Source: Diphasiastrum complanatum (lineage: Eukaryota > Streptophyta > Lycopodiopsida > Lycopodiales > Lycopodiaceae). From it: DNA of 64,000 nt. Below the pieces are notes generated by a model. It had not been told where the DNA came from. It saw only the letters and a list, made by a program, of their open reading frames with translations, and made no database searches. Location of the stretch: the NCBI GenBank assembly GCA_029204225.1, contig CM055100.1:25365106-25429105 (forward strand). Reading direction: 5' to 3'. The position numbers were made by a program, and so were the translations under genes. Of the stretch, positions 4,484 to 56,511 are shown in pieces (position 1 is the first letter of the stretch; every line of letters starts with the position of its first letter).

Positions 4484-5986
4484 CTACGAATCTGGACTCA
4501 AGTTGAGATTTAACAATTCTATTAGAGTAGAATGTTTGTCCCTTGATAATGGTTTTGTCAGAATGTCAGCCAACATAATGTTTGTGTGACAGTAACTTAG
4601 TGCAATGTCTTTGTTCTGAACCTTCTCTCTGAGAAAGTGAAGTTGAACTTCTATATGTTTGGTCCTTGTGTGAGCTCGTCGGTTCAAGGACAGAGCTATA
4701 CAACTCTGATTATCGCACTGGAGTATAGCTGGACCAAACCGCGGGAATCTCAGATCCTGTAGTAGTCTTCTAGGCCAGAAAATCTCCTTCACTGTTGACG
4801 TAGTTGTGACATATTCAGATTCTATGGAGGACAGAGAAGTGCATTTCTGCTTTCTGCTATTCCATGAGATGGGTCCTCCTGCGAGGAAGCAAATGTAGCC
4901 TGATGTGAATTTTTTGGTATCCATGTCTCTTGTCCAATCTGAGTCTGAATAAGTAATCAAAGAGAGTGCAGCTTCCGTATTTCCATTATAACTCAAAGCA
5001 TAATACTTTGAGACTTCAATGTACTTTAGAACTCTTTGTAGAGCTTTCCAATGTTGTAGGCCTGGATTGGACATGAATTGCAACAGTGTGCTTACAACAT
5101 ATGCTAGATCAGGTCGTGTGAAAATCATAGAGTACAGGAGAGAACCCATGATAGACTGATAAGAGTACTTGCACATTTCTTGCTGATCTGCCTTTGTTTT
5201 GGGACACATGTCTTTGGAGAGCTTACATCCTAGATCCGTAGGAGTGTCTTTGGGCTTGCAATTCTCCATGTCGTATCTTCGAAGTACATTAAGTAAGTAG
5301 GATTGTTGGCTTATGGTGATTCTTCTGCTCGCGCGATCTCTGTGAATATCCATTTGAAGTAGGTAATGGACTGGACCTAGATCAGTCATCTCAAACTCTG
5401 ATGAGAGTAAGGACTTGGTCTCTTGGAACAACGGATTTGAATTGCTGATGATTAGGGAATCATCAACGTATAGTGCTATTACAACATAGCTTGGCCCCTT
5501 TGGTTTTAGATACACATTTGAATCTGCGGTGTAGGTGGTAAAGTCGTGCTGCAACAAGAAACGATTTATTCTATCATACTAGGCCCTTGGAGCTTGCTTC
5601 AGACCATATAATGCCTTATGCAATTTCCATAGTAGATGCTTCTTGCCTTGAGGGATGTAACCTTCCGGTTGATAGATGTAGACATCTTCTTGTATGTATC
5701 CATGTAGGAATGTCGTTTGAACATCCATCTGGTGAATATCCAGATCTTCTGTAGCAGATATAGCCAATATCTCATCCTCCACCGTCCTTGGATTGCGGAA
5801 CTCTTGGCTTGTCAGAATTGGTGTGAGAGCCTTGTGACTTCGAGGCCTGCTTCTTCGCTTTTTGACTGTGGGTCGGTGCTGCATCTTGACTATTGTCTGA
5901 GCCCTAGCCATGGCCATGCCCTTGAAATTCAGGCCTTGTTGCTTATTTACTCTTGTCTTGGGTTTGACTTGCCTGTGTAGTTTCAT
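4484..5986 (-). pseudogene. copia reverse transcriptase-RNase H (partial polyprotein)
   Basis: The 357-codon frame 5557-4484 holds the second half of a copia reverse transcriptase (ALYVDDSLI active site, DLGPVHYLL, CKPKDTP, RPDLAYVV) and a complete RNase H domain (YSDSDWTRD, SSIESEYV, CDNQSCIAL, HTRTKHIE, ADILTKPL). The preceding frame (5986-5579) supplies HQMDVQTTFLHG and LYGLKQAPRA; the Trp codon that should follow PRA is a stop (about 5580). Upstream of about 5770 the sequence no longer looks like reverse transcriptase and is probably a foreign junction. No gag, protease or integrase adjoins it. Non-functional, as judged from the stop and the missing 5' portion. Confidence 0.9.
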
Positions 5987-12039: not shown

Positions 12040-12660
12040 GGGTTGGTGATATTTTTTGCAATTTTAGCCAACAAATTGCAGGTATTTATTCACAATTTTT
12101 TTTGCAGAAATTGTCAAAACAATTGCGAAAATTCATTTCCGCAATTTTTTTCAAAATAGTGTATAAAAATTGCGGAAAACAAATTCGCAATTTATATTCT
12201 ATTGCGAATTTATTTTTCGCAAATTTTATACACTATTTTGAAAAAAATTACGAAAATGAATTTCCGCAATTTTTTTTGCAATATTTGCACAAAAAATTAC
12301 GGAAAAATATCCGCAATTTTTGCTACAACAATTGCGGAGATGAATTTTCGCAATTTTTTTGACAATTTTTGCCCAAAAAATCTGGCAAAAATATCAACCA
12401 AACAAATTGCGGAAACAAATTGTGGAAATAAATCTGCAATTATTCTGCTAAAAGTTTTCTCAATTGTTTTATTGTTAATTTAGCTATAAAAATTGTGAAA
12501 AATTAGCCAAAAAAATTGCAAGACCAAAATTGCGGATTTGTCAAAAAAATTGCAAAAACCGTTTTCGCAAATTTTTTTTGGCAAAAACTGACAAAAATTG
12601 CAAAAATTTTTGCAATTTTTTGTCATTTTTTTCGCAATTTTTGCCGCCTTTTCTTGTATT
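12040..12660 (+). mobile_element. CACTA-like right terminus with dense subterminal repeats
   Basis: About 600 bp is packed with TTGCGAAA/TTGCGGAA-type words in both orientations and ends GCCGCCTTTTCTTGTATT. Read on the minus strand that end is TACAAGAAAAGGCGGC, close to the CACTACAAGAAAA terminal repeat of plant CACTA elements, with the first bases mutated. The same end, better preserved, occurs at 24487-24501. Subterminal arrays of short repeats are typical of this superfamily, where they bind the element's own TNPA protein. Within it, about 12115-12330 forms one large imperfect inverted repeat centred near 12205. Confidence 0.6.
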
Positions 12661-12701
12661 AACCATCCTCTAAGCATAAACACAATAGAAAGTACTCTAA
12701 C

Positions 12702-13933
12702 TTGCATGACCATTTCAAAAGAAATATATATTGTGATATCCACAAAAGAATATGTCGTCTTCTAATCAAAGGAATGGCTTTTGTCTTCTACATATCTGTT
12801 GAAATTCCAGATGATGAGTCTGTTGAATCTTCAACTGTTTCATTGATTGAAGCATCTGCACCTGTTCCAATTGATGGAAAAGATGCAGATACTGATATAG
12901 GGGTTGAAGCTCTCCCTTGTTCTATAATCCTCTCTGATTCTCTTCCATCTGCATCTCTTGTTAATCAACTCAATGTTCCTTTATATTTTATAAATAATGA
13001 ATGTTATATTTCATTTAATGATATAGAAGATGTATTGCATTTGAGAGAGGATGAAATGCTCTCAATTTTTGCACAAAATTTATCAGAATTTTCTGACATT
13101 GTTGATTACTCATGTGATGATCTTGAAAGTGAGATAGATTATGATAAAGATGACAATTGGAAATCTGGCAATGAGGCCTTGGAGGCCATGATTGAAAAAT
13201 CTAAAGCCTATGAAAATACTTTGCCTATAGAGGAGGAATTTTTGGAATTTCAAAAAAGATATCCCCCTAGGGCTAGATATATCCCCTCTGGAAATGTAGA
13301 GGCCATTGGAGGACATGACATCAACAGAGCAAACATCATTGATTACAATGATTATGATCTGGTAAGTAGATATTATATTGGTATTGATATTGTTCAGTTT
13401 TCTTATTTCTTATTGGCATTGATATTGTTCAGTTTTCTTATTGAGTTTGCAATGTTATGTATCATTTTAAATTTATTTTCTTTTCTCGTTTACAGGATGC
13501 TATTGGAATAGATGCCTTTGGTATGAGACATGGAGGCGTCCGAGGTGTGTCAGTCGGGAGAAAAGATGTTTCTCTATCTCACTATTTGAAAAACTTTCAA
13601 AATAATGAGATTTGTATATATCATTCATCTTATAATCCATATGCAACCACTGTCATTATGGCCATCAAATCATTATCAGTTTGTTTAAAGGGCCATAAGT
13701 ACGCAAGAGGAACATATAAAATAATTTTTGTGAAGAGAGATTTGGCTATTAAGATATTGGGTTATACTCCCAATGAGACTATGAAAAGATCATCTACAAT
13801 GGCCCTTTATTCGGGTTACATTGATATGATCAAGAGAAAAAATTTAGAATTTTTGGATCCATATGAAAGGAGATTATTTCTTCATGACAATACCATCCGT
13901 CTGAATCTTGAAGAGGATGATGATGACAATTAA
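12702..13933 (+). CDS. unidentified two-exon gene encoding an acidic protein
   Basis: Two long frames are joined cleanly by a predicted intron 13362-13495, with donor GTAAGT and acceptor TTTACAG. The join is phase 0 and reads D-L-D-A-I-G across it. From the ATG at 12702 this gives about 365 residues. The first exon is Ser/Asp/Glu-rich for about 200 residues and ends with a basic PPRARYIPSG segment. The second is more globular and finishes in an acidic tail, EEDDDDN. I do not recognise the family. The true start may be later, because TTGAAATTCCAG at 12806-12817 resembles a splice acceptor. It lies between a CACTA end and a transposon-like gene, so it may be a captured or transposon-borne gene. 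Confidence 0.45.
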
Positions 13934-14500
13934 ATAGTTTTCTGTAATAGATTTTTAATATATTACAAGGATCTCTCTTTTGTAATGAATTTGAATGTCT
14001 TTCGAAATATCGTAATACTTGGCGAGTTTTTAGCTTGATATCTAAATTGTGTTCTTCTGTAAAACCACTGAAAAAGTTGAACTAAATATTTATTTCTTGA
14101 ATTGTGTCCTCCATGATTTGTTGCTCTACAAAATGCTCCCCTTGCTTGCCAATGAAATTTTTCCATGCCTTGTGATGACCAGATACTTGAGCTCCCATAT
14201 TCCTTTGCAAAATAAGTTGCATGATGAAGGATGAGGTGTGCTGCAAACAATAGTTTTTATTAGTTACATCAGTAGAAAAAAATATAAGCCTGAATGAGAA
14301 AAGTACCAGATAACGATGTAGATTAGCACCATGTAGTGAGTAATGTTGTCTTTTGTCCATCAATCATTTACAAATTTTACAAATGTGGTGCAACGATTTT
14401 GCAAAGTCCTCATATTTTCTGATGATAGGTTTTCTTTCTTGATAACACCTATGAGTTTGTCTAAGTTGGTCCACACTTGTCTCTTTTCCACTCAATTACT
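13934..14500. other. spacer between divergently read unknown genes
   Basis: No supported feature. Short frames on both strands overlap each other and show no family resemblance. Confidence 0.4.
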
Positions 14501-14512
14501 TCCTTTCAATGT

Positions 14513-16316
14513 TCATGTGGCTTGAACAATTTCTCTCCAAATTTCGTATCTGACACTTGATTCTTTGCATGTATGATTGGATAAGAATCTTCTTGCTTTA
14601 GCACCTCCAATTGATGGCTTATTAGGAATGTTTCCTTTTTTTCCGGAGAGTCTGTCACTTTTTTCAATCGTGACATTCCCTTTATGTAGTCCTGCATTTG
14701 ATAGAACTATTTCCAACCTCCTAATTGCTGCTTTAGCCACTGACTCTGGTTTATGATTCCATGCTAGTAGAATATGCAGGTGAATTAGTTTTTCAATAAT
14801 ACAAACCTCAGCATGCAATGTGCATATGTGAACATATCTTAATGGAATTGGTAGAACACTTCTCATAGTTGGATCTTCAGCTTCTCGTGTTGGGCCAGTG
14901 TTTGTTGATCATCCCAAATTCATATTGTAGCAATCCTTCATGCAATAAAAACATGGATGCTTTGATGTTGCCCCATGAGGACATTATACAAACATTTTAA
15001 TGTTTTTAAATTCCCTGCAAGGTGCCATTGAATTTGAAAACTTCCATGGTTTTCGATTGTAAATTTTTCACCCTCCAAATGTCTCTTTATAATCTCACCA
15101 TAATTTGTTCTTGAAAATATCCATGATAGTATTTTATGGTCCTCTTTCAAGACCTGTAGAGAAACAAGTAATGCATGACATGTCAATAAAAACTAGCAAG
15201 GTATGAATTGTTAATATAGATATTCTAAATGAAAATTGAAATGTATACCTGGAATGCCACCAACCACCATATGTGATTTTTCGATTGAACACTAAACGTT
15301 CGATCATCTGTATCTGAAATTTTGTTCATCAAAGTGACACTCACACATTCCAACTTCTGACCCTTGATGATTTCAGATTCATCCAATTTTATACAATAAT
15401 GATCTTTCCATTTACTTGATGTTCGTCTAGTTTATAGAGTCGAATAATGTATTTTAGAACATTTTCAATATCAAGGAAAATATTATTGCAATCGTTGTAA
15501 TTGAGCTCACCATATTCTGATTTGTATAATTTAGTTATATGAAGTGGTTGGCCAACTACTTTGAACATTCTGTCATTATAAAAATTTCTAGCTAATCTTA
15601 CCTGATATGGATGCGGAAGATTAATTTTCTTCACCATCACTTGGACAAAAGCTTCTTTAACTATTCTAAAAAAAGTAGAATAAGCATTTCTGCTAATTCC
15701 AGATACATCACATGCACCTTGTATCACATTCGCATCCATATTGAACCTTAATCAAAACAGTCTCTACAATTTCATTTTTCACTTTTTCAAACCGAGCATT
15801 TTTTATCATTTCCTTTGCTGACTTTCTTGGTAAAACATGAGTTAAAGATGATCCAATGCATGAACGATATGTTAAACAGTTCTTTGCCACCAAACATGAT
15901 CTGCAACAAACATATGAAACTCAAATTATGTTTAATAAATAAATAATCCATGTTATCAAGTGCAAATCAAACTTAAATGACATATACAAATCAAATAAAC
16001 AGTTTAGATGACAACATACTTGAATGCTCAGATACTTTTTTTCCTGATTGCCACTATGTGTAGATAGGTCATCAATATTTTTCATCGGTACTCTCTTTCT
16101 TTTCTTCTTCATCATTGTCTTATTGATAACTTTTAGATCAACAGCAGATTTTAAACTCTTGGATCGCAACTTTTCCATGGATTCTAACATTCCTTGGTTT
16201 GATCCTCGAAGAGTAGTGACAGTAGCATTCAACTCTGACATAGCATTCTTGAGTGCATTGTTTTCAACACTAGTGTGTTGCACATAATGAAGCAATTGTT
16301 GATTTGCACGTTGCAA
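14513..16316 (-). CDS. unidentified multi-exon gene of a transposon-like family
   Basis: Exon-like pieces read down the minus strand. First (16316-16018) is a coiled-coil start with a basic KKKRKRVPMKN stretch and a plausible donor GTATGT. Next (about 15895-15390) is a segment with GISRNAYSTFFR and WKDHYCIKLDE. It is followed by a donor after AFQ near 15250, then 15147-14890 carrying LAGNLKTLKCLYN and, after a one-base shift, GATSKHPCFYCMKDC. Last (14866-14513) comes LSNAGLHKGN and KPSIGGAKARRFL. The order 'L-G-D/N-L-K-L', 'G-A-S-PC-x-x-C', 'LH-GN', 'GxxxxxxL' resembles a widespread uncharacterised family of probably transposon-encoded proteins. At least two frameshifts suggest a pseudogene. 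No name can be given. Confidence 0.4.
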
Positions 16317-19300
16317 TTGTTGATTAGCAAATTGTAATTGTTGATTCAGACAAGATATGCAATATCACGCAACCTTTGACAATATCCAAGTAATCCACTA
16401 TTTCCTTCACATACATATATGAGAAGATGAGCTACAGACTTAAAATATGGACACAAACTGATCCATCCACTCACAAATCTATATTCATATGATTATTCAT
16501 TCTCAATTCTCTAACTATTGTTGCATCATTCTCTACAACTTTCGCATTTTTTTTAATAATTCGAGTGCATTCCATCGGAAGAGCAACATGCAAATGGAAC
16601 ATTGCCATTGTTAAAGCTACAATCATGTAAATGAATCTACCTACAATTAATCAATATGAATAGATCTAGCATTCCTTACTTTTGTAATGTTTATGTTGCA
16701 CTGAAAAATCGTCCCGCCTCATATTTCACTATAAGCATACAGTGACTTCAAAAGTTTTGCCTCTCCCGCTTCAGTTTTTGCATTGAGCACACCAAGATTT
16801 TCAGTCTTAAAGCTCTAGTCCCAAATTTTGGAACAAGCAGGAAGAGGGTTTGGTCTTGCCAGGAAGCGCTAAAAGAGGAAGGGCCCACACTGCCCTTCGT
16901 GAGTGATTGAGGGATACCGCTTCCAACCCAGAGGGCCATCTCAACCACCCCATGCTCCCCATCCAATGAGGGTTTTCCAGGCCCCCAGATGTACGGCTGC
17001 AAGGAGGTGTAACTACACTCTCGATTCTATTGGTCCTATCATTCCATATTCATAGCTCTAGGTGAGGGTGATTAAAGACATCCCCACTACACTAAAGCCT
17101 TGTAGCCTATGGGTCCAAGTCCGCCTCATGGCATTATGGCTCTAGCTTGAAGCCTTTAGAGTAGAGGTTATGTCGATCTTACGGCTATACTTGGTAAAGA
17201 GGGTGGTGCTTACAATTTTCGTAAAATGTCCATGAACACTCAATCAACAATATTAAGACACACAAGATGAAGCTAGTGCACATACATGAAATAGAAACAG
17301 GATGTCATCTCTTTGTTATTTGTCATGCAACGTGGGGGTGCCATTTATACGCGCCGCCTTGTTTGATAGGCGGTGGTATTTTGCCAACCGTTAAGCCTAG
17401 GTATTTCGCTAGGCAATTCCAACGACATTTGTGACTACATTGACCCTTAACCAAGGTGGCGTATTTCGGCCACACATGGTAGACTACTCGCTCTGGTGTT
17501 CCAAAGAGGTCGGGTTAGTGATTCACGTATGCACAAAAGCATAACGTTTAACGACTCTTGAAAGCCAGTGTGATATATGAAGAGATTCTAGTTTTCAAAA
17601 TGGTAGAAAGGAAGCATACTAGTTTAACAATACCGATGTCATTCCCAATAACATCAAATCCACAACCATATGTAGCTATGTAGCAACGTACAGGTCAAGG
17701 ATTAGCAAATGCATTGACAATTTTCCCAAAGCATATTTGAATCAACAAAGGCATACCTCGTGTATTGGAGGAATATCGTGCTAAGGATTACCCAAGTCAT
17801 GAGGCCACGTTCCTTTTTCCTTGAAACTCGCAAGTTGATCCGAGACTGACATCTGTGGGCGGCTGGGTTGGATCACAACTACATTTCTGGATTTGTTCTA
17901 CGCCAGCAGAGAGATAAGAGGCTGACATTTGTAGAGGAATCAAATCGATGTTGCTTTGTTAATGGAAGAACAACGACTGTTGGGCCCAATTCAGGAGGGT
18001 CGAACAGCTATAGCGCAGGTAGAGACCAACTCTTCATAGATTACGCTGCTCTGTCAGCGGGACAGGGCCACACTTTTGAGCGAGTTGTATAGGACTGTTG
18101 AAATGGGCTTCTGATCACGTGGAAGGCCTCAATTGATGTACTTTCTACAGTCAGACGTGAGTCCCCATTCTCGGTTAGAGAGAACTGTCGGCCAGGTACT
18201 CGTGAATGTCTCCAGATGTTCTAATAAGCCCTTAATCGTAGTTGATTAACAACACTTGTTGTAATCCTTGCTTTGACATGGCTACGCCTGGACGGGATGG
18301 CATTGAATTCATCAACAGAGCAACTTTCATAGAGCTGCAACGACTGCCTTTGATCTCGTTGATGATGTAGAAGGAAACTCAAATGTCATAGCTACAATGT
18401 GGTGTGTGTGGACTGGGTGTCTGCGACCCTCACACCAATCTGCTCTATGCACAGATAACTAATTCCTCCATCAGCACAGGCAGGTTGGCATCGATCTCCT
18501 CATCCCACCACACAGAACAATGAGAAATAAAATCCTTCCCCATTCATTCTCTCACGTCCCGTGGCTCACTCTCAATTCTTTCTCATTCATTCTCTCTAAA
18601 CAAAAGTTCTCTCCCATCTTCTCATCCTCTCACACTTCAACAATGACCAACCTCCTTGAACTCACGTGAAAGGTTAACAACAACCCACTCTATCAATAAC
18701 ATCAACGACTCTCTGTTCTTTTCGTTCAAGAATGATCCCCTCTTTTATAGGCATCTCTCACACCTTCCCCTTCAAAATGTCATTTCTTCATTCTTTAGGC
18801 CCTTCATGCCATGTGTCTTTCTTCCCTTGGAGAGGTACCCAAGCATTGATTTTGGAGGTGATTTGAGGTGATACCCATCCTTTCCAAAGATAGTATCAAA
18901 TCTAGGTGTACCCCACTACCAAGTGTGTGAGCCACCTCCCTTTATTGCATTTGTGGGTGATATAAATGATAAGTACTTCACTTGCTTACCTTTCTTAATT
19001 GAGCAGTCCTTATGACTTCTTGTGTCAATACTTACTATTTTTAAGTAGGATATTTTTAGTAAGTGAGTGTAACCCCTCCTTTGCATTTCCATCTTGTGTG
19101 TCCATGGCCCATGGTTTAGGTCGTCGAGGTTCATTTGTCGAGGTGCCATTCAACACACTACCTCGAGATTTTGCCACTGGCCCATACTTTGCCATTACCA
19201 ACTCTTTTGTGTTTTGAACTTGTCCCGCAACTTCTCTGTTATTTTCGTGAGTCAATTTTTCCCCTCAATATTGCTTTGACGCGAACAACTTTCAGCGGGC

Positions 19301-19564
19301 ACTCATGACTTGGGGTTTCTTTAAGACAACCGGTTCCCTGAAAAGCAGAGTACGACAGTGTCGGCTGTTATAATCGGGCCAATTCTAAGTTGTAACCTAT
19401 TCCAATCGGCCATTTCTAAGGCCTTAAACTTTGCTATAGCCACATTTTGGGCGGGCTGGGACCCCTACCTATAGGCAACTTTATGCCGATTTTACAATCA
19501 ATAGCCAGGTTTTACATGCCGGTTTTTTACAAAATTGTGAAAATCGCTTAAAACATAGACCGAT
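16317..19564. other. no recognisable gene
   Basis: Mixed composition, including a more GC-rich part about 16750-17500, but no ORF with family resemblance and no RNA gene was seen. The segment from about 19250 upward, next to the copia remnant, may be decayed RNase H sequence. Confidence 0.4.
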
Positions 19565-19918
19565 TTTTTGTGCGAAATATCGGCTAGCAGCTTCAAACCA
19601 GGGTCAAGTGAAAAGTGGCTCGGTTTGCACTCGGCCATTCCATATTTCTTTAACGCATTGGTGAGGTATCTCTAATGGCTGATGAAAATCTACTTGCTGG
19701 GTCAAATTCAGAAAATTTGAATTCTGAGACAGTAGTGAGCAGGACCCATATATGTCATCTTGTATTTCTATGCTAACAGGCATTTAGTATCCTTCAACAA
19801 ATTTAAATTGTTACTAAACAGTAACGTGTCATCAACATAAAAAGTAATCATTATGAAAGAATCTGATAGAGACTTAAAATAAACATTTGAGTCTGCCGAT
19901 TTGGAGTGAAACCATTCT
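19565..19918 (-). pseudogene. copia reverse transcriptase, C-terminal half
   Basis: On the minus strand this reads GFTPNR, then after a one-base shift ADSNVYFKSLSDSFIMITFYVDDTLLFS, MGPAHYCLRIQIF, and finally ALKKYGMAECKP and LDPGLKLL, the normal order of a copia reverse transcriptase from just before the YVDD active site onward. The first codons continue exactly from the other half at 1078: the joined frame runs INTFLIEN then GFTPNR with the target bases ATTCT present at both breakpoints. It is degenerate, with several stops. Confidence 0.8.
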
Positions 19919-20663
19919 TGTTGGAGGGTTTGCGGATCCCGAGGCAACCCTAACCCTAGTTAATAAGTGAGAGGGATATGGCACCCTGTGTGTGTACGAC
20001 CAACTCGATGATCACATACATATTTGATTAATTAGAAAGTCAATTAAAGGACTTTAGGCCTTTTTGCGGGACTTTTAATGTCGTAGGGCATATGTCAAGT
20101 TAAGTGAATAAAGTTGGGTTTCCCTCCAATTTTGGATGGTTCTCACTCTTTTTTAAATTTGAATAATTAGGGAGGCAGAAATGGACCAATAGGATTCAGA
20201 GGCCAGGGTCCTCCTCTCTACTATAAAAAGAGACCAACTCGAGTTTCCTACACATGTATATATCTTCATTTCAATGAAGCAGATTGGTTTTCTTGTAAAA
20301 TGGATTTATGAATGTCCTTGCTCTCTATCACTTTTCCTCCATCTCTCATGCTTTTATTGTGTTTGCTAATTGTTGGATCTGATTGTTATTGGGATCGCAT
20401 GTTTTATACTTTTTATGAGAGAGAAAGGGAGAGAGAGAAAGAGTAAGCTATCTTCATTGTGGATCTTAGTGCTAATGATTGTAGTATTAATGCTTAGGGT
20501 TAATGGATGTTAGAGTAGATGTGGATCTTCCATTCATGCTGAAATCTGAAATAGGCTATCGCTCTCATGGGAACGAACCTATGTGTGACAAGTAACTTCA
20601 TCTTCTTGATGCTAGATTGATTAGATCTTGGGTTGAGGATAGGCAAGAAAGAAACCCACTACA
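19919..20663 (+). mobile_element. gypsy 5' LTR (copy 2)
   Basis: A 745-bp LTR from TGTTGGAG to CCCACTACA, nearly identical along its length to 334-1077. The left flank is ATTCT (19914-19918) inside copia reverse transcriptase. The right flank is a primer-binding site at 20668, which makes it a 5' LTR. A TATA-like tract (CTATAAAAAG, 20219-20228) is in the expected promoter region of the LTR. Confidence 0.9.
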
Positions 20664-20667
20664 ATTT

Positions 20668-20685
20668 TGGTGCCGTTGCCCAGGA
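20668..20685 (+). other. primer-binding site of the gypsy element
   Basis: TGGTGCCGTTGCCCAGGA starts four bases after the LTR. It resembles the TGGCGCCGTTGCCGGGGA primer-binding site seen in plant Ty3/gypsy (Athila/Tat-like) elements, so the element is assigned to that side of the gypsy group. The assignment rests on the PBS and on the protease type. Confidence 0.75.
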
Positions 20686-21881
20686 GCTATGCCAATTTTT
20701 CAGTTTGCAACATGTTTGTTGGATGGTTAGCTTGCATTAGGCATCTTGTGATGGCATGAATAGGGTTAAATCTGCATTTATCGTTAGTTTGGGAGTGATT
20801 TTGCCTGATTTGAGTGGATTTCCTTGTTTGAAATCTAATATGATTGTGGAACAGGGAAAGCTATTCAGATCAGCAATCTTAAGATCCATTTGGATATGAG
20901 AAATCAAAAAAAAGAACAAAAATTGGTCAAATCTATTAGATTTTGGTCAAAAGGAGGCAAAAATCGTCATCAGAGCTGATAAATTTTTGCTCTCTTTCAA
21001 GAAACGTTTGCTGAGTTCCAGGCACCTTCGGTTTGGATCACAAAACCTTCTATTTGAAGGGCAAACAATCCTTCCCAGCAGATTTTTATAAACATCAGAA
21101 AAACCACCAAAAAATATCAAAAAATCACCAAAACCCTAAAAATACAAAAAAAAGAACCTTTGTCCGATTCATTCTGCATAGGTGTGATTCAGATCTATCT
21201 ACTGCCAGGTCGATGGAAAATAATATCAGAAATAGAAGGTTTCTTAGAGCATCAGTTGTCATATTGTTATATTTTTGTCAAAAAAGTCTCTTTTTTGCAA
21301 AAATACCAGTATTACTCTTGATTCTTTGCCAAAACCTTTGCTGAGTTACCAGATTATTTTATTTATAGTAATTTAATATTTTTGAATTTGGCGAACATCC
21401 GTTCTATCTGGATCATAGAAAATCTCTATTTTTACCCTCGTCAAACTACAAAAACTGTGCCTTTATGTGCTAGGAAACTTTGCCAGTTCTACCCTAGATT
21501 TATCTGTGTCAGATTTTTAGTCTGAGATTCGGCGAAGGTTATTTCCATAGAATTTGTCAGAAAAGCCTGATCAGAAAGTTTTTACCAAAAATAACACTGT
21601 TAAACCTTCATCGAGTTAACCTTCGCCAATTCTATTGTTAGATTCTGATTTTCCAGATCCAGTCTTTGTCAAATTTTGGGTCAAATCTGATTCAGTCTGA
21701 TATCGATTCTAAGAATTTTTTCATTTTGAAAAGTATCGATCGGTTAATCTTAGAAATCATTTTCATGGTATAGGTATCTGATTCTCGTCAAGTGGAAGAG
21801 ATCTAGCATATTTGATTTGAGATAGTTCCTAATTGAAAGTCTAGATCCAATCTCATTGTCTGCTTGATTTGATCTGTAATA
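20686..21881 (+). mobile_element. untranslated leader of the gypsy element
   Basis: About 1.2 kb between PBS and gag with no conserved coding. It is AT-rich and has recurrent words such as TTCGCC/CTTTGCC and TTTTTGCC, suggesting old internal duplication. Long leaders are common in this group. Confidence 0.5.
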
Positions 21882-24121
21882 ATGGCTGGCTCTTGGAGGT
21901 GCTCCTTAGGAAGTCAATCCAATCATTGTTAGGAGAGCACCCCGTTTCGATCTACCCAAATACAATGGATTAACAAATCTAATTAGATTTCTTCAGATCT
22001 ATTCTGAATCTTGTGAAGTCTATGGCGAAGTTTTTCCCCAAGATAAACTTAAGGTTTTTCCTATGACCTTAACAGTCGCGGTACAAGATTGGTATTACAA
22101 TCAAGATGAAACTGAGTGTACGAATTCAGAAACTGTCAAACGAGCCCTTATCACACAGTTCAAACCTCAAAAGTTTACGGAAGAGCCTTTCCTACTTTTA
22201 AGTAGAATTAAAATGGGAAAGCGAGAAATGGTTCGATTGAACGAGTAAAACGCCTTAGATCTGAGTGTGAACCTTAACGAAAATGTCATAATTATGTGGT
22301 TTTTGTCAGGTCTACCTAAAAGGATCAGACGTGAGCTGAAACGTCATAATGAATACGCAATTTTGCAAAACGCTATGGATGATGCAATTCGGGAGGAGGA
22401 TGAAGATTCAGATGATGAGTCGAATATCAGTATGTCATCTTATACGGCAGGGCAGACCACTACGACATCCACCACTATTGCATCAACAAATGTCAATGCT
22501 ACTATAGAGACGATGCTCAATGAGTTCGAGAAACTTGGAAAGAACTAGAAGAAAAATATGGAAAAGCTGCAGTTGCAATTTGATGAGAAAATCAAAGCAT
22601 TAGAAGATTTCCATGGACAAGAAAACAAGGAACGTGAGAAGTTTGCAAAGACTTTTCCTACCAGGGAAAATGTCTAGTGTTCCATTTGTACGGGAAATCA
22701 CATAGTGAATGAGTGTTCTCAATTGAAAAAATGAATGGAAATCAGTATATGCCATTTATGTAATTCGCCTGATCATGAGAAGCAGCTAGACCTCATCAAT
22801 CTGCTCTTGGATACCCGAAACAATTAACCTTACCTACCCCACCAAAGCATCTCGCTCCTCCTGCCAATTTGATGGAACCAGAACCTTACAGAGGTACCGA
22901 GCAATGGAATTATAGTAATGATTATGAAGGTGGATCTTCAGAACAATATGCTATTTATGCTGCCACGCAACAAAAAGCATCTAGAAACTAGACCAGAGCA
23001 CCACTTGGATGCTTTGCATGTGGAGAAAATCACAGAGTTGTAGAATGTCCAAACAAATTTGTACCATTCTGTCGAAATTGTGGTTATGGGCATTGCTATA
23101 AGGAATGTCTAGCAAGACCGAAGCTACCACCGGTTATAGCTCCTATAAATTTGATAACAATCAAGCAAAGACCAACAGCTCAGAATAAACTAAGTGTACC
23201 TTTGATGGTGGTTACCAAAGCACAAAAGTAGAAAGAATCTATAGCATAACTACTACTGGCTGATTCTATACCATTAACTGATATACTAACAGCATCTGGA
23301 GTCTATTGAAATCTTCATGTAGAAAAGAGAAGATATCAAGATATGAGGTAGTGGATTAAACATTTTCAAGAAGAATAGGAGGTTGAGGCTGCTAGAGCAA
23401 TAGCCGAATTCATTCTTCACCAATGCCACCAAATAATTCACGTACAGATATGAATGCTTAGTTGTATCATCATGAAGAACCCTTCAAGATGACTGAACCG
23501 AAGCACCGCAAACACAAATGCTCATGAATATTTTGTCTAGTAAGATCAATATTTCGTTGGGAGAGTTCCTGAAGTTGGGCCAAAAACAAAAGAGTATTAG
23601 CGCCAAAGTTAACTCAAGCTGAACCAGAGGTCCATCAAGAGCCACTTTTTTGTGCCGGGTTTGAAGAATCTAATGAAGTACTCCATGTTGGAGCAGCTTG
23701 GAAAAGTGAACAAAAAAATATCACCCTACCGATACAACATAGACAATTTACTAATGAGGCAGCCGTGATAGATGGCGGTTCAGGAGTTAACCTAATTTCT
23801 ACAAAGCTATGTGCAAAGTGGGGCCTTACAAAGATAAAGCCTGCGACTTTTGCTATTAAACTGGCTGATCAAACTACAATTCGTCCGCAAGGAATGGTTG
23901 AAGATATACCTGTCAGAATTGCCGGAGTAGAGTTTGTCATTACTTTCGTAGTGATGACTTACCAGAAGCAGCAAATGTCTAGATATACACTGGATGATGT
24001 GGTTATCATGTTACCAAAAGCACAATGTGAATCCGAAAAACAAGTACCAGAATCGAAAGATGTTTATGATGGCCCAGCTAGGACACAACCTATGAATCTT
24101 GCTAAACCAGGAGAACCATAA
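21882..24121 (+). pseudogene. gypsy gag-protease, broken
   Basis: Gag begins near the ATG at 21882. The retrotransposon gag domain is visible as DLPKYNGLTNLIRFLQ, then DWYYNQDET and LITQFKPQ, followed after a stop at about 22246 by WFLSGLPKRIRRELKRH. An acidic hinge follows. Cys/His zinc-knuckle blocks occur near 22675-22780 (CSICTGNHIVNEC; CHLCNSPDHEKQ) and 23005-23110 (CFACGENHRVVEC; CRNCGYGHCYKEC). The aspartic protease is the open frame 23765-24121 with IDGGSGVNLIS as the active-site loop. In-frame stops and shifts occur throughout the hinge. Reverse transcriptase, RNase H and integrase do not follow; the element is cut off shortly after protease. Confidence 0.8.
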
Positions 24122-24289
24122 AAGATTGTACAAGTTGGATCACAACTTAATCTTGATACTTAATAAGCAATGTTTATAACGCTTGAAATTTTTCCGAATA
24201 AGCCAATGGCGTCAAATAGTATTAAGGATCAGCTGCTGGTGGCCAAATTATATTTTTGTGCAGCAATGATGGGAGGCTCCTGGGAATCT

Positions 24290-24501
24290 CGATTCACAAC
24301 TTGGACAACCCGCACTTTTTTCCGCAAATTCTATAATGAAGACAAAAATTGCAGAAGTTTTTTGCAATTTTTTCCACAATTTCTACCATGACGGTATAAA
24401 TTGCGAAATTTTTTTCGCAATTTTTTGGCTTTCCGCAATTTTGACCCAAAAAAATTACGAAATTTTTTTTTTTCGCATTTTTGCCACCTTTTCTTGTAGT
24501 G
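24290..24501 (+). mobile_element. CACTA terminus (right end)
   Basis: The last 15 bases read on the minus strand are CACTACAAGAAAAGG, the canonical start of plant CACTA elements, preceded by about 200 bp of TTGCGAAA/CGCAATTT-type subterminal repeats. It matches the end at 12660. The opposite terminus (CACTACAAGAAAA on the plus strand) was not found, so the element is truncated, nested or a one-ended relic. It abuts, and probably interrupts, the minus-strand exon at 24502-24751. Confidence 0.65.
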
Positions 24502-24751
24502 GTTGGGAATGTACAAGGTCCTGAAAATGAACGAAACAAAAATTATCTATATCCAAAACATGAGTACTAATAATCTGAGAAAAATTATCAAGATAAGAAA
24601 TTAAATTATAACGATTCTCATAAACTAGCTTATCGATATCGAAGGGAGCAAAAAAAATACTAGCAAAATACTTCAATTTGTCAGATGAAATGTCACTGGC
24701 ATTAAAAAAATCCATAAGTTTTTCATCTGAGGCCATGGAGGAACTAGCCAT
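24502..24751 (-). CDS. unidentified first exon, cut by a CACTA end
   Basis: An open frame of about 83 codons starts MASSSMASDEKLMDFF and ends at the CACTA terminal repeat, where the reading becomes repeat sequence. Composition is protein-like (alternating Ser/Asp/Phe/Leu). A ~70-bp hairpin unit begins only 10 bp upstream of the ATG. I do not recognise the family; whatever followed was lost or lies beyond the CACTA insertion. Confidence 0.35.
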
Positions 24752-24760
24752 ATTGAATCC

Positions 24761-24830
24761 GATATCGGTTCAACGCGACAAATAAATATCGGTAGAGGAA
24801 TAAAGCAAAGTGCGCGCGCTGATCTGATAT
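24761..24830. repeat. 70-bp hairpin unit (U1)
   Basis: Left arm GATATCGGTTCAACGCG and right arm GCGCGCGCTGATCTGATAT are inverted copies separated by about 34 nt. A more degenerate unit follows at about 24880-24951 (GATATCGACTCAGCGCAC and GCGTGCT). Confidence 0.75.
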
Positions 24831-25402
24831 GGTAAGGCCGAGAATGAAATTTTTCGAAAAGCACTCGTCGGAAGTGGCTGATATCGACTCAGCGCACCTG
24901 AATGAATATGAGCATGCACATCAAGGGATGGCGTGCTAGAGAGTTCAGAATAAAAGATCATGGAATCGAAATATGGAAAGTGGTATACATATTTATAGCC
25001 AATTCATGTTGATCACAGCCATACATTTGTCAAATAACGAATTGAGATTTATAGCCTATGTTTATCCACCAATCAGAATGAGACAAATTTGTACCTACGT
25101 CGAAATACATTAACTAGTCTATCACTAGATTCAACGAATCATCATTAGCCCTGACCCTACAATCTGTACCTGTACCGAAATACATTAAATAGACAATCAC
25201 TAGCCTCCTAGAATAATCATTAAAAAAATTATAAACATGATTAATGGATATCATTGAAAAACGTGTACGAGGAGAATTATTACAATCTCTCGCCCTATCG
25301 AAGCACCGTAAAGACGAAAATTTTCCTTTTGAGATAATGTTCATTCAAAACATTTTCATAAGTCTTTCATTATGCGTTCCAGTATGATTTTTTTGCGTAT
25401 GG

Positions 25403-25472
25403 GATATCGGATCATCGTGCCTGGTAGACGATGTATTTGTTGCATTTGGACTGCGCGCGTCGAATCGCTATT
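25403..25472. repeat. 70-bp hairpin unit (U2)
   Basis: Arms GATATCGGATCATCGTGC and GCGCGCGTCGAATCGCTATT in inverted orientation. The loop differs from the other units. An unpaired arm copy (CCAATATCGGATGAGCGCG) lies at 25611. Confidence 0.7.
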
Positions 25473-25846
25473 CCAGGACCAAATTATTATCAAAATTTTC
25501 GAAACTATTGGACCCTATATGCATGATCAAAGCTTGATTCAGAAGACTCTTCATACTGGCCAAAGTTATGCAGAATCTATCGAATCAAGCTCTAATCATT
25601 CATATTGCATCCAATATCGGATGAGCGCGCGATAATACATACTCTGGTTTCCAAATGCTTTATATGCGTGTTGATTAGCTATCGGGTGAAAATCTGACCT
25701 TTGGAGTTTCCAAAATTATAGTTATTGGATATAAAAAAGGTCTTATATTTAAAGCTTAACGTTCTCGATTTCAACATTAAATGGTAGAAGTGTGATAGCA
25801 TACTTTTGTAGCATTAATTGTAGATGTGACCATACTTTATTTGAAA

Positions 25847-26080
25847 TTAATTCTGGTTAATTCGATATGGACTAATCATTTTGATGACTGATGGATATTT
25901 AGATTGATTTGATTGACAAGCCTCTAAGTAATCATCATCGTAATATGAACCTCGAACATCCAAACCACCACGTTTGCAATCATTTCTGATTTTCCCTATA
26001 TATACTGATCGACGACGCTGAAATTGTTTTCTATAGTTATCTGCATCCATGCGATATTGATTCAGCACGCTCGAAAACAA
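25847..26080 (-). CDS. unidentified small ORF next to hairpin unit U3
   Basis: A 77-codon frame with a basic stretch (RKQFQRRRSVYIGK) and an acidic YYDDDY. The first codons overlap hairpin unit U3 (26053-26121). No family recognised and no splice context resolved. It could be one exon of a longer gene or chance. Confidence 0.2.
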   Translation of the reverse strand: MFSSVLNQYRMDADNYRKQFQRRRSVYIGKIRNDCKRGGLDVRGSYYDDDYLEACQSNQSKYPSVIKMISPYRINQN

Positions 26081-26121
26081 CTTCCTTCAATCCGTTGCTA
26101 CTCGCTCGCGCCCATCCGCTA
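26053..26121. repeat. 69-bp hairpin unit (U3), followed by a shorter unit
   Basis: Arms GATATTGATTCAGCACGC and GCTCGCGCCCATCCGCTA. A second, shorter pair sits at 26149-26196 (TATCGCTTCGACGCACC and GCATGTTGATCCGCTA). Both are just upstream of the histone-like coding unit. Confidence 0.6.
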
Positions 26122-26260
26122 CCAACTAACAGATTTGTTGAGCTCAAGTATCGCTTCGACGCACCCGATCAACATTATCGCATGTTGATCCGCTACTACA
26201 CAGTAATGGCATGGACCAAGTAGACAACACGAGGGCATTCAGGTGGAATACCAATTTCAG

Positions 26261-27596
26261 GTGTGGGACAGGAAAATCCACAACCACCACCTCCTCCACC
26301 ACCACCTCTTCCTAGACCAAGGGGCAGAAGAAGAGACCCACCCTGTCTCAAGGATATTCGGAAGCTTCAGAAGACATTTAATTTTCTGATTCTGAAATCT
26401 CACATACAGAGGTCCATCAAGCAGGTGACAAGAAGTCTACTGCAGATGTGAGATGGACGATAATGACAATTGAGGTGCTGCACACAACATATGAGGATTT
26501 CCAGGTGAAATTTTTTTCTGATACTGTTGTTGCAGCTATCCATGCCAAGAGGGTGACCATCATGCCCAAGGATTTGAACATTGTGTTCAGGCTTCGGAAC
26601 ACATATGACAAGTTTGCTGAATACTTTAGACTTGCTCCCTCCTCTCCTCCAAAACAAGATTTAGAGAGGAGAAAACGAAAGCAATCTCAACCAACCAAGC
26701 TTGTTATTCATATACAGAGCGGGAGTGTTTCAAACAAGAGGAGGTCTCTTGACCCTCCAAAGCGAGGGATTTTTCCAAGCCATCTCCTCTGAATACTATT
26801 CTTTCTTCTAGGCATTCTCCTCCTAAGTCTTCTTCTTCTCCTCCCACTTCTGCTAAATCTTCCTCTCCTAATAAATCTCCACCTCCTAAATCTCCTCCTC
26901 CTCCTAAACCCATAAATATTATTTCCCCTCCTCCTATTCTTGGAAGTGATTTAAATTATTTTGTTAGTGTAAAGGTAGAATCAATTTTGAATGACAATTC
27001 TTTATGTGGTTTATCAGTATTACTTCCGTCACCCCCTGCGTTTTAGGATGTCAAAGACCAATGTTGGTCCCCCTTTTCTAGTTTAGATACTGGTGAATTA
27101 GAAAGTAGGAATAAAATGCTAGGGGACAATGTAGGAGGTGGGGCAATTCAGTACTGGATGGAGTTCTTCCAGACCCCAATGTTTATAGATGTTGCATTGT
27201 TTTCCCTTCATGGCTGCATTTGATTTCCCTGATTTCAAAAGTCTGGACGATGATATGCTCCAATACGTTAAACCGGGGACTCCAATTCTCGTGCTGCCAT
27301 ACATGACAAAGTAAATGTCTATTTTTCAGATTTTATTTTATTGAATTTATCATATGAATTTTGATTTCACATGGATTCTCATAAATTTATTGTTTTCTGA
27401 TTTCAGTGATCATTGGAGCTTATATGTGTTGTCCTTGTACATCAATGATGAGGGTGTGCGTAATCCAACTTGTTTAAAGATGAACTCTATTACACACACA
27501 CCCAAAATTGCCAGGACCCATATACAGAAAATACTAGAACTCTTTCCAGTACCAAATGCAAAAGCATATTCGAAACTGAAAATGGTTGATGCAGAG
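26261..27596 (+). CDS. histone H3-like fold joined to a Ulp1-like (C48) protease half
   Basis: Reading from 26263, a Pro-rich N-tail (eight prolines in a row) leads into DPPCLKDIRKLQKTFNFLI and QRSIKQV, aligning with the H3 alpha-N and alpha-1 region (LREIRRYQKS, QRLVREIA). After a shift near 26440 the frame gives ADVRWTIMTIEVL and then AAIHAKRVTIMPKDLNI, almost the H3 C-terminal signature CAIHAKRVTIMPKDIQL. The H3 tail lysines are absent. A Pro/Ser linker follows (26815-26935). Then come AIQYWMEFF, DFKSLDDDMLQYVKP, ILVLPYMT and, across a predicted 96-bp intron (27311-27406), NDHWSLYVLSLY, resembling Ulp1 proteases up to the catalytic His. The expected catalytic Asp position reads M-N-S, and no Cys lobe was found. 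Frameshifts near 26440, 26790 and 27225 and a stop near 27047 suggest a pseudogene or undetected introns. The start is undefined; TTTCAG at 26255-26260 may be an acceptor. Confidence 0.6.
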
Positions 27597-27610
27597 GTAT
27601 AAATTTTTCA

Positions 27611-27680
27611 ATATCGGTTCGACGCGCCCTTGTAGTTATTGATTGGTTTATTTTCATAACGTGCGCGCTGATCCGATATT
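27611..27680. repeat. 70-bp hairpin unit (U5)
   Basis: Arms ATATCGGTTCGACGCGC and GCGCGCTGATCCGATATT, nearly perfect inverted copies, starting just after the probable splice donor that ends the Ulp1-like exon. Confidence 0.85.
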
Positions 27681-27696
27681 CAATCAAAAATTTTTT

Positions 27697-27767
27697 GATA
27701 TCGGTTCGACGCGCGCTTGTTTTCGTTGTAGATTTTATTCTTACATCCTGCGCGTTCATCCGATATC
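27697..27767. repeat. 71-bp hairpin unit (U6), tandem to U5
   Basis: Arms GATATCGGTTCGACGCGCGC and TGCGCGTTCATCCGATATC. The period from U5 is about 86 bp; arms are conserved and the loop only partly similar. Confidence 0.85.
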
Positions 27768-27870
27768 TCATAATGTTCAAATTTGGATTCTACGTATATG
27801 CTCTTCCTACCTTACTCTTACCTGCACAAGAGAAATTGTTTTAGTTATATATTTTATGAAACTGATTCAC

Positions 27871-29093
27871 TTAGAAATAGAAAACAAGGAGTATTTTTAT
27901 ATGGCATAACGTACCTTTACACCATTCAATCGAAATTGATAGTACTGAGGTAGATCGAATTGCAACATGTCTAGTACTTTGAATGTCATTGAGAAACCAT
28001 TCTTCCTCGACCTCAACCATTGCAAGAATGTTGTCATTTCTTTTCACTATTATCTGAAGTTGCTCTTGAGGGTTTATACCAGAATCTTGATCAAGTGGCT
28101 TACAAACATTTTTGCATTTAATCCATCTTCTATAATACAGCAGCAAAGTGAGTATTTGTTTTTCGATGTGATATCTAAATGTCATGGATGAGTAACATAC
28201 TCTGCACTCAACTTGCTGATCTTCTTTGGTATCCCAACCATCATCCAACAACTCGGCGATTATATCAGCACTCAAGTCCTTACAAATAAACATTGTTTTC
28301 GTTCTCCGAACATTGCATTTGAAAAAAAAATCAACAAAAATAGTAAAAGGTAGATACCAACTTAATCTATTATTCTTTGATCCAGTGCTACATTTTAATA
28401 TACTCCGAATATCAATATATAGCCTAAATCGAAAACTTTCTAAAATTGCTACATCAGGAGAAATCCATTCCTCACTCGAAAAATCTGGTAGAGGATATGG
28501 CTCTAATCTACCAACTAAACCATTTTTATCAGAAAAATAGGTGTGATCATAAAAAAAAACTCTTAACTCTAAAAGTGGTTTTGGAGAACAACCTTTATAT
28601 TGTAAAATACCGATATCCGAATGTATGACATCGATTATGCCTGCAATCGATTGAATTGATTGTCATTCAATGAAATTTGATGGATACAAATCTGCAAAAC
28701 CAACAAAAACATTTCATGAAAAATATAATTTAAAGAAAATGCTAAATCTAAAGAAATTGAATCTGAAAACTTACAATTGCATTTCCTTCTATCATTTGGA
28801 TTCAGATCATGAATGTTGAGCTCATTGTGAAGATAAGCATGCTGAACTAAAACTTCCATGATAGATTGACCGGTAGGTGATACTTTAAAATCCATTATTT
28901 TGCCTTTCCAAGAGCTTCTATATATGTTATCCGATCTTTTTCTTTTTCGAAATGAGCCTTTTGCAGAGGGATGCATCAAGATCCATTGATATTTTTGATA
29001 TATTCTTGGTATCCATTGATCTTCTGCATTTTTTTCATTGCAAATATTGATTGCATCAATGGTTCCTCTTGGTCTCCAATTATGTGTAGCCAT
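27871..29093 (-). CDS. unidentified multi-exon coding unit
   Basis: Two protein-like minus-strand frames. The upstream one starts at the ATG at 29093 (MATHNWRPRGTIDAIN) and includes YQKYQWILMHPS and a basic FRKRKRSD. It has a plausible donor GTAAGT after the codons for K-C-N near 28780. The downstream one (about 28330-28190) includes CKDLSADIIAELLDDGWDTK with a donor GTATGT near 28200, and an acidic continuation (VEVEEEWFLND) near 28000. Exon joins could not be settled. I do not recognise the protein. It is convergent with the H3-like/Ulp1-like unit, 270 bp away. Confidence 0.3.
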
Positions 29094-31470
29094 TAGTCGA
29101 AAATACGAGTACGCAGGCTGAGATTGGAGAGAATGTAGAGATTGCGAGGTAAACCTAAGAATGACAAGAAAATGAGAGATGGAATGAAGAAAATGAGAGG
29201 TATACCTATGAATGACAAGAAGTTCCTTAACTACAAGGATTAGTTAACCACAGTTTATGACTATCATTAGAGGAGTTCTAAATCCAAAAAAGACCCTTTG
29301 TAAAGATTCTTTTTATATTTTTTCTCAATTTTTTCTTACACATGGACCAATCAAAACACTAATATTTGAAATCTACGTAACATAACTTTTTGAGTCCACA
29401 TTTTGATTCCACACTAAAAATGACATAACTTTTTAGTGGTAAGTCCAAATTTAGCGAAGTTTGGTGCATTGGAAAGCATTCAACAAGGGCTTTCCAGTGA
29501 TATGTTAGATGACATACTTCTGAACTAGAACTAAAAAGTTATGGCAAGTCAAAAGTATTAGTGCTATAATATTTTAATAATATAAACTACATCTTGCACG
29601 AATTCTTAAAGGGTCTTTTGGGAGCTCAAAACTCCTCTAATGTGACGTCAAATCAACCTCGAGTGAACAATGTCAGGCAGCATAAAAGTATTCAGGCAGA
29701 AACTGTGGTCCAATCACAATTGTTTGTTCTGCCTGGCGGGATATTTAAAAATCACAAAAATTTAGCTGGGAAGTTAAATACAATTTCCGTCCGTCAACCA
29801 CTGTTACAGTTCGTCATAGATGGACACCATTCATTGGGACACATAAGCGTTGAAAGCGTGCGAAGTCAAAAACAACATCTTGACAAAGGGCTCATTTTGA
29901 GTTCTAATATCCCCTAATGGTTTCAACCTTCAAATTATGGAATTTGGCATTATCCTCATAGATGGAATCTTAAAAATACATAGGCCTCAAGGATGAAATC
30001 TTAATTAAACTAGCCCTCATAGATGGAATTAATAAAAAAATATTGAAAATGATTCTCATTGATGTCTTTTAAGATTTTTGTGATGCACATTATGTACAAT
30101 GATCCTGAGTGTTTGTCGGCCTATGATAAAGATTAATGATTTGTCATCTTGTCTCACCTCTACTATATCTATCTTTACAATGGGCCTCCAAGCAACCATA
30201 AACATAGTTGAGGGTGAGGCATTGCTTGCAACCTTTTTGGAAATTCAATATAAGATCCTCCCAAAAAAATAGTAAGTTGTGCCTCATAGCATTGTTGGAG
30301 GATGTGGGTCCCAGCTCAAGGCATAAGTATAGAAGCAAGGCTTATATGGAAACTACAAGAAACTCTATTTTGGAAGACGTTGCAACGTGATTGTTTTGTA
30401 AAAAGGAGGATATTGTGTGTGCAACGCACGTCCATATATACGTGCTGTGCCTGAGAAATACCTCGCCCTTGAGACTCGTTCTTTCCAAGTTGCCTGGCTA
30501 TTGCTGATTTGCAACAATACGATCTAGTGCTAGCAGCCTTTTAGGTGGTAATGAACGTAATATCCTTCACTGGAAATAATCTGAATATAAAAGCTGATGT
30601 TATATCCGACGGGTTTTGATCTGGAAGATGGTTGTGTAGAGTGATCATTGTTTTGCCTTGTCCAGGTATTGTACGTTTTTGCTGAAACCAGATTGTGGGG
30701 CCAGCTGAACGTGGTTCATGATCTAATAGTATTGGTATTACAGCGAATCAGCCCAGTTGGGTATCGATCATGCATTACAATGATCACAATATGTATTTTA
30801 CTCTGCCCTGACGATGCCTTATTTAATTTGTCCAGATGCAAAAAATGACGAGTGACCACGTCCAATTCAAGACAGTAAATTATTCCTACGTTTGTAGATA
30901 TAATACTTCAAAGTTCACTAAAATCACTGCTACCGATTTTCTGTGAAACAGAAAGAAGTTCATCTTTAGTGATTGAATACGCTATTCGGATGGTTGGTAT
31001 CTTCTGATTTGTGTGTGTGCGTGTATGAGTGTGGACATGATTGTTATACGATAATGATATCAGTGGACATGACTCTTATACGATAATGATATCAGTATGT
31101 ACCATAGTCATTCTGTGACATAAAGACCCCACTGGTCCACAGACGTAAAATAAGCTCATGACTGCATCCCAGTAGCAGAAGAGATGCATGATCCGGCCAA
31201 GCTTTATTGTTCGTGGAGATTATAACAAGGTCACTGGAGTGATAGCTGAACGGGAATTTCTCTTATCAGATTAAAAGTGTCCTAGTTGCGAGTTGATAGG
31301 TATATCCAAGATCCTGAATTCAACTTGCACGTTCAGTCAGTGAAATGAGAAACTTTCTAACTTAAGCCTTTCCGTCAAAAGTACCGCAAGTATCTCCGAA
31401 AACAAATGTTTATCTGTAGATTCTACAAGCCTAGTTCAGAGTCATCACATGGAAAAGGCTAAGCAAAGAC
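29094..31470. other. intergenic, upstream of the OVATE-family gene
   Basis: No supported gene. Frames of up to 107 codons (29594-29917, +) show no family resemblance. The last kilobase is presumably promoter and 5' untranslated region of the OVATE gene; no distinctive element was recognised apart from a short direct repeat (GTGGACATGA-TTATACGATAATGATATCAGT) at about 31030 and 31071. Confidence 0.4.

Positions 31471-37360: not shown

Positions 37361-56511
<19,151 letters not shown>

Follow-up and report, generated by a model that had tools for sequence, protein, structure and literature searches.

Remains of a very probable transposon gene joining histone H3 to a Ulp1/SENP-type protease in Diphasiastrum complanatum

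A decayed H3-Ulp1 gene and its carrier transposon

We analyzed a stretch of 64,000 nucleotides (the window) from Diphasiastrum complanatum and found, on its plus strand at 26206-27596, the remains of one gene (Table 1). Read 5' to 3', the gene consists of a decayed H3 N-terminus, a Pro-rich stretch, an H3 fold, a linker that is basic at first and then Pro/Ser-rich, and the beginning of a domain resembling Ulp1. A sequence-only reading of this DNA had described a Pro-rich tail, the H3 alpha-N/alpha-1 pattern with a nearly intact H3 signature, a Pro/Ser linker and the motifs LPYMT and DHWSLYVLSL, and all of these lie on the plus strand in the order claimed, the H3 pattern extending from alpha-N to alpha-3. 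The 96-bp intron that it had proposed was also borne out, with both splice sites readable. It had, however, begun the gene at 26261; the ATG lies earlier, at 26206, and opens the gene with M-A-W-T-K-stop, a decayed H3 N-terminus.

Table 1. Features of the H3-Ulp1 gene and of the transposon that carries it (window positions)
Feature	Position	Strand	Basis or remark
Transposon left half, inverted relative to the right half	12661..16846	-	blastn against oriented copies
Transposase-like ORF fragment, D2-type block, C-x2-C in relatives	14516..14908	-	by eye
Second transposase-like ORF fragment, D1-type block in L025:9-611	15392..15751	-	by eye
Transposon right half, to right inverted terminus	24500..29919	+	copy comparison
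H3-Ulp1 gene, exon 1	26206..27310	+	frame interrupted by TAG at codon 6 and by deletions
H3-like N-tail: decayed ARTKQTAR, then Pro-rich	26206..26334	+	limits approximate
Histone H3 fold, alpha-N to alpha-3, KRVTIMPKD loop 2	26335..26600	+	two frames; limits approximate
Linker: basic, then Pro/Ser-rich	26601..27100	+	limits approximate
Ulp1/SENP-like domain, N-terminal part up to LPYMT	27101..27310	+	start approximate
Intron 1, 96 bp, GT...AG	27311..27406	+	splice sites in sequence; phase equal in L048
Exon 2: catalytic His block DHWSLYVLSL and KMN block	27407..27596	+	copy comparison
Intron 2 remnant	27597..27791	+	Gln-Cys exon deleted at 27791/27795
Two long ORFs, 27871-28662 and 28635-29243	27871..29243	-	no family above cut-off
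MITE-like secondary insertion, 35-bp inverted ends	29265..29642		lacking in four copies
Right terminal inverted repeat, CATTAGGGGATATTA...	29885..29919	-	copy comparison

The gene lies within a DNA transposon of high copy number, represented in the window by a decayed copy, with terminal inverted repeats (TIRs) of about 35 bp; inverted repeats bound the repeated unit, as in class II TIR elements. About 187 bp of the left terminus, including the inverted repeat, is missing from the window, and the left end is known from another copy, L044, where it reads CATTAGGGGAAATATGGGCTCAAAATGGGCCCTTT. Left ends of the CATTAGGGG type were found in L044 (at 4773), L045 and L046, and right ends at window position 29919 and in L030, L037 and L038; each of the two ends gave at least 40 matches (the best 40 of 1577 and of 1332 candidates). 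Two copies have both ends; L037/L046 measures about 10.5 kb by its coordinates and L030/L045 measures 7.6 kb, and a target duplication was found in neither of them.

About 11.8 kb inside the transposon (12661-24499), which takes in the left half, is apparently inverted in the window. Positions 12661 and 24500 adjoin in other copies, for example in L028 (at 2289 and 2285), and one and the same MITE-like end sequence lies at each breakpoint, pointing to one inversion event that covered this segment. An AT-rich palindrome at 12062-12328, 82% identical to its own reverse complement, is likewise MITE-like and lies near the inversion breakpoint. The secondary insertion near the right end is lacking in L029, L030, L037 and L038, which are the fetched copies that match across its site. 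Elsewhere in the window, a minus-strand host gene at 37364-40507 resembles, by eye, a tonoplast monosaccharide transporter, and a 264-bp repeat occurs in two copies of 97% identity (44341-44604 and 52902-53163).

On its left side the element has plus-strand ORFs with blocks that look by eye like those of DDE transposases. The fragment at 14516-14908 had no Pfam match, its relative L025:629-1324 none in NCBIfam, and profile A3 none in PDB; the fragment at 15392-15751 gave sub-threshold Pfam matches only. By eye, L025:9-1324 and L044 may encode an unclassified DDE transposase, with three D/D/E-like blocks and a C-x2-C motif, and a further minus-strand ORF of the transposon region lies at 24455-25003. 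Overall, no transposase class was assigned by Pfam (sub-threshold matches to unrelated families only), by NCBIfam or by PDB (one profile), and a distant transposase could be missed by these searches because the ORFs are broken by introns and decay. We rejected a hAT assignment, as the ORFs searched matched no hAT transposase domain and neither of the two copies with both ends has an 8-bp duplication. The sequence-only reading had favored a transposon-borne capture of the Mutator group. Its first half stands, since H3-Ulp1 is carried by a TIR transposon; its second found no support, since no MULE transposase domain was found among the ORFs searched and a 9-bp duplication is lacking in both copies.

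Copies of the fused gene in the genome

The H3-like frame is a dispersed repeat found on many contigs of this 1.74-Gb plant genome. In the assembly, the block 26200-27650 has at least 75 matches of 79-100% identity (best 40 of 1758 candidates), a count that is inexact because alternate haplotypes may be among the small contigs (such as C51, which gave a 100% match). Because it recurs across the genome, the H3-Ulp1 block is not a product of chance. In one better-preserved copy, L007 (contig C17, 3.696 Mb), the tail, fold, linker and protease start form a single frame of 417 amino acids that is open from the ATG to intron 1. When this product was searched against the genome, 88 of 101 matches extended from residue 56 or lower to residue 383 or higher (best 100 of 12,677 candidates; not a random sample, because scoring favors long matches). 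The combination of H3 and Ulp1 parts that had been proposed from the broken window copy thus holds in paralogues. Among the same 101 matches, four, query included, are full-length and free of stops.

The window had also been suspected to be a dead copy of an element intact elsewhere. The family does have better copies, such as L007, but none of the copies read was seen to be whole across the three exons; in L024 a CA repeat throws exon 2 out of frame, and L048 is broken as well. The CA repeat in protease exon 2 expands between copies (L024, at about 5860-5900, and L040), giving His-Thr repeats, and shifts the frame in several of them.

The same gene organization is conserved in a second subfamily, which is known from the gene rather than from element ends. 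Its representative L048 (contig C7, 53.54 Mb) has an H3 fold, a linker and, downstream, exons with GHWSLNLIS, KMN and SPQQNDSFNCGWYT, the Cys exon of this subfamily having been seen in this one fetched copy. Both intron phases are common to L048 and the window's subfamily, and the two share 47% identity over the aligned H3 fold and 35% over the aligned protease. Exon 1 of L048 contains a stop. Among the best 125 of 10,104 candidates in a search with the L048 family, all 125 matches listed span residue 49 or lower to 318 or higher of the 319 searched, and 27, query included, are free of stops (both by eye). A scan of viral contigs with L048 gave seven pattern matches and no relatives, and we rejected a viral origin.

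A third group (L047 and L049) has a Pro-rich lead and an H3 fold that ends at the normal H3 C-terminus, and 2 kb of L047 contained no protease motif. A search with plant H3 (best 150 of 6060 candidates) returned 13 host genes at 97-99% identity. Below these came some matches of 79-93% that are partial, and then H3-like loci of 44-57% that are dispersed, many of which have frames 200-440 amino acids long. A host histone-variant gene family, spread by retrocopying or segmental duplication and flanked by transposon ends only by accident, would accommodate the H3-only group with its normal C-terminus. We consider this origin very improbable for the fused gene, which has introns, is dispersed over many contigs and sits with other ORFs inside a unit bounded by inverted repeats. 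Taken together, the results indicate that the locus very probably derives from a TIR-transposon gene encoding a fusion of H3 with a protease of the Ulp1/SENP (C48) type.

The histone and protease parts

Profile searches confirmed the histone assignment, with matches over the fold in the window, in L007 and in L048. The H3 frame of the window matched the Pfam Histone family (PF00125) at 1.4e-12 over 26382-26792, and solved H3 chains in PDB matched it from 1.3e-8; a second window frame, 26224-26451, stayed under the cut-off (0.046). The values were 3.1e-20 for the L007 fusion frame and 1.3e-25 for the L048 fold. Two AlphaFold models were unusable (pLDDT 37 for one and a mean of 34 for the fusion); the order of helices in the latter resembles H3 and carries no evidential weight.

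We compared the tail in 21 rows, comprising the window and 20 copies, two of which are identical over the gene. The tail had been said to lack all the usual modifiable lysines, which is wrong for K4: Lys occupies tail position 4 in all 21 rows. In H3, K4 can carry an activating mark. At position 9, 20 rows have Gly and one has Ser, so that K9 is lacking, and position 14 has no Lys. Further tail lysines are lacking in 16 rows and number one or two in the other five, at positions 22, 36 and 40 by plain count, the H3 register being lost there. The family tail is thus ARTKQTARGHSGG-like and departs from the canonical ARTKQTARKSTGGK tail.

The divergent H3 fold is a point of likeness to CenH3 and CENP-A, as are a W-L pair opening alpha-N, as in CENP-A, and L-I-P residues, as in plant CenH3 (both by comparison with reference sequences). 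The differences are a loop 1 that is as short as that of H3 in L007 and one residue longer in L048, and a family tail that is ARTKQTAR-like, as in canonical H3. In a small tree with reference sequences, the L007-type sequences grouped with L048 at a support of 95, and their placement near CENP-A and CenH3 had a support of 52-55. We do not favor a CenH3 origin; the ARTKQTAR..SGG-like tail speaks for canonical H3 ancestry.

The protease part is distributed over three exons, of which exon 2 encodes the catalytic His and KMN blocks and exon 3 encodes SSQQVDSVSCGWYT. Exon 3, with the Gln-Cys block, was found in 19 of the 20 other copies read (the exception being L035). The absence of a Cys lobe, remarked on in the sequence-only reading, is therefore true of the window, which lost this exon by deletion, but not of the family. 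The catalytic Cys is retained in all 19 copies with exon 3. Of the 19 rows that contain exon 2, counting the window, 18 keep the catalytic His (L038 has Tyr). The place of the catalytic Asp is held by Asn in 16 rows and by Asp in one (L028) among 17 readable rows, again including the window, two more being unreadable because of frameshifts. L048 likewise has Asn, and the substitution first noticed in the window copy is accordingly a family trait. Relative to the C48 triad, the His, Gln and Cys blocks are present and Asn replaces Asp in most copies.

Neither single window frames nor the spliced L033 domain matched the Pfam C48 family (PF02902). A profile (A1) built from two spliced family members and one second-subfamily member was then compared with PDB, and all eight matches up to E=10 were SENP2, SENP8 or SENP7 (best 7.7e-4); in the alignment with SENP2, the positions of His, Asn/Asp, Gln and Cys fall in register. 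The Pfam check proposed for the protease thus gave nothing, and the C48-type assignment rests on the PDB profile and the motif alignment. The family resembles SENP2 and SENP8 in that the His, Gln, Cys and KMN/DS blocks align, and differs from them in having Asn for Asp in most copies and in lying below Pfam detection. In hhalign, the same blocks aligned weakly (probability 42, E 2.6e-4) with a host C48 protein, L001, which is NEDP1-like by eye. None of the three C48 matches in the genome (L001-L003) was similar in DNA to the window element, to L028 or to L048.

We infer that the three exons would be spliced into one protein, whose catalytic places, filled by His, Asn, Gln and Cys, would make it a cysteine isopeptidase of the Ulp1/SENP (C48) type. 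The first reading had supposed that the product, if expressed, might bind rather than cleave. For the family this should not be taken as the default, given the K4 of the tail and the Gln-Cys exon present in relatives. A family-wide version of the idea is that Asn in place of Asp leaves the protease inactive, so that it binds SUMO or a SUMO-like modifier and serves as a histone-tethered reader or decoy. The Asn of nearly all readable rows and of L048 favors such a pseudo-enzyme; the retention of His and Cys and the Asp of L028 go against it. Papain-type enzymes, moreover, use Asn in the third catalytic place. On balance we regard the pseudo-enzyme as possible but rather unlikely.

Selection, precedents and a possible action on chromatin

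Within the window's subfamily, dN/dS was estimated from 19 copies and the window (L026 was omitted, being identical to L024) and compared with five wrong-frame controls. The value for the whole gene was 0.77, with controls of 0.49, 0.69, 0.53, 0.62 and 0.86. By region it was 1.91 for the H3 tail (controls 0.29-1.62), 0.69 for the H3 fold (0.42-0.79), 1.02 for the linker (0.49-0.94) and 0.53 for the protease (0.53-1.07). Because dN/dS is not below the wrong-frame controls, copies of this subfamily decay freely after insertion, and the decay is neutral.

Between subfamilies, a different pattern was observed. In three comparisons of the H3 part, second codon positions were identical at 0.73, 0.64 and 0.68 and third positions at 0.45, 0.26 and 0.35, and fourfold sites were identical at 4 of 14, 2 of 11 and 2 of 14 (8 of 39 in total). 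The protease exons of L048 and L028 (97 aligned positions, 35% identity) gave 0.51, 0.67 and 0.39 for the three codon positions and 3 of 10 for fourfold sites. By this simple codon-position measure, the pattern is such as protein-level selection would give; three lineages were compared, and alignments built on protein favor a selection-like pattern somewhat.

These data bear on whether the H3 and Ulp1-like sequences are passengers, taken up by transduplication and carried along with no function, as is mostly the case for H3 in the hAT elements of fungi. The neutral decay of the window's subfamily would fit, and there is a precedent in Pseudocercospora fijiensis, where, according to the portion of PMC6710886 used here, a hAT element amplified H3-like sequences to hundreds of copies, all but the original being inactivated. 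Passengers would not be expected, however, to show the same fusion, introns and catalytic residues in two subfamilies whose proteins are 35-47% identical, a much lower identity between them at third than at second codon positions, and long stop-free frames that persist (4 full-length among 101 matches listed in the L007 search and 27 among 125 in the L048 search). We therefore judge passenger capture unlikely, and return to a transposon-encoded fusion with a function of its own.

Partial precedents for each half of the fusion exist. The same portion of PMC6710886 reports tens of hAT-carried H3 copies in P. tritici-repentis, many of them potentially active. The Dothideomycete hAT described there resembles the present element in being a DNA transposon (about 9.5 kb in the fungi) that carries H3 in hundreds of copies. 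Its H3 sequences, however, are copies of host H3, mostly partial and intronless, with no other domain reported in that portion of the paper, and the element has a hAT domain and an 8-bp target duplication (PMC6710886). In contrast, the element described here is from a plant, has a divergent H3 fold that is complete in relatives, a SENP-like fusion and introns, and shows neither a target duplication (in two of two copies) nor a hAT match. A review from 2026 on how plant transposons capture genes (PMC13317346, in part), which cites Hoen 2006, describes KIU/Kaonashi elements as non-TIR MULEs of Arabidopsis that carry Ulp1, together with similar plant MULEs; its main text does not contain the word 'histone'. 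Like the present element they are plant DNA transposons with a captured Ulp1 domain, but the present one has TIRs and no MULE transposase match (PMC13317346). In animals, Ginger1 has a Ulp1 domain at the C-terminus of its integrase-type transposase (PMC2836005, in part). It is similar in that a DNA transposon encodes Ulp1, and one listed Ginger1 element also has a PHD finger; it differs in that Ulp1 sits on the transposase and the hosts are animals, and the main text of that paper does not use the word 'histone' (PMC2836005). Some viruses, too, have captured histones (PMC8015243, in part). An H3-Ulp1 fusion in a transposon was not found in the literature searched, which comprised open-licence papers and leaves its absence unproven. 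Capture of H3 and of Ulp1 is thus known separately, and a lasting fusion of both appears to be new in that literature.

The persistence of the H3-Ulp1 fusion in diverged subfamilies suggests that the histone serves as an anchor for a protease of ubiquitin-like modifiers on chromatin. The H3 part may pair with host H4, or H3 chaperones or tail readers may bind it, and it would in this way bring a deSUMOylase or deNEDDylase to chromatin. There the protease could act on proteins that bear SUMO or NEDD8, silencing factors being the likeliest, and so counter host silencing, or help insertion, at the element. In plants, the silencing of transposons works through H3K9 methylation, DNA methylation and SUMO-dependent factors. 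A transposon-encoded H3-protease fusion that acts on chromatin is, in our view, probably the best overall explanation. Its parts are more tentative when taken singly: that the product is a chromatin-tethered, active isopeptidase is possible but less likely than not, and that the fusion has an anti-silencing purpose is somewhat more doubtful still. An element-made H3 that keeps K4 and lacks K9, enters nucleosomes with host H4 and bears a SUMO protease stripping silencing complexes would be a more elaborate version, which we hold to be improbable.

If the reading is true, a transposon-made histone with an attached protease would add a new means by which transposons influence the chromatin of their hosts, and a histone that keeps K4, lacks K9 and is tied to a protease would make the contest between transposons and silencing directly testable.
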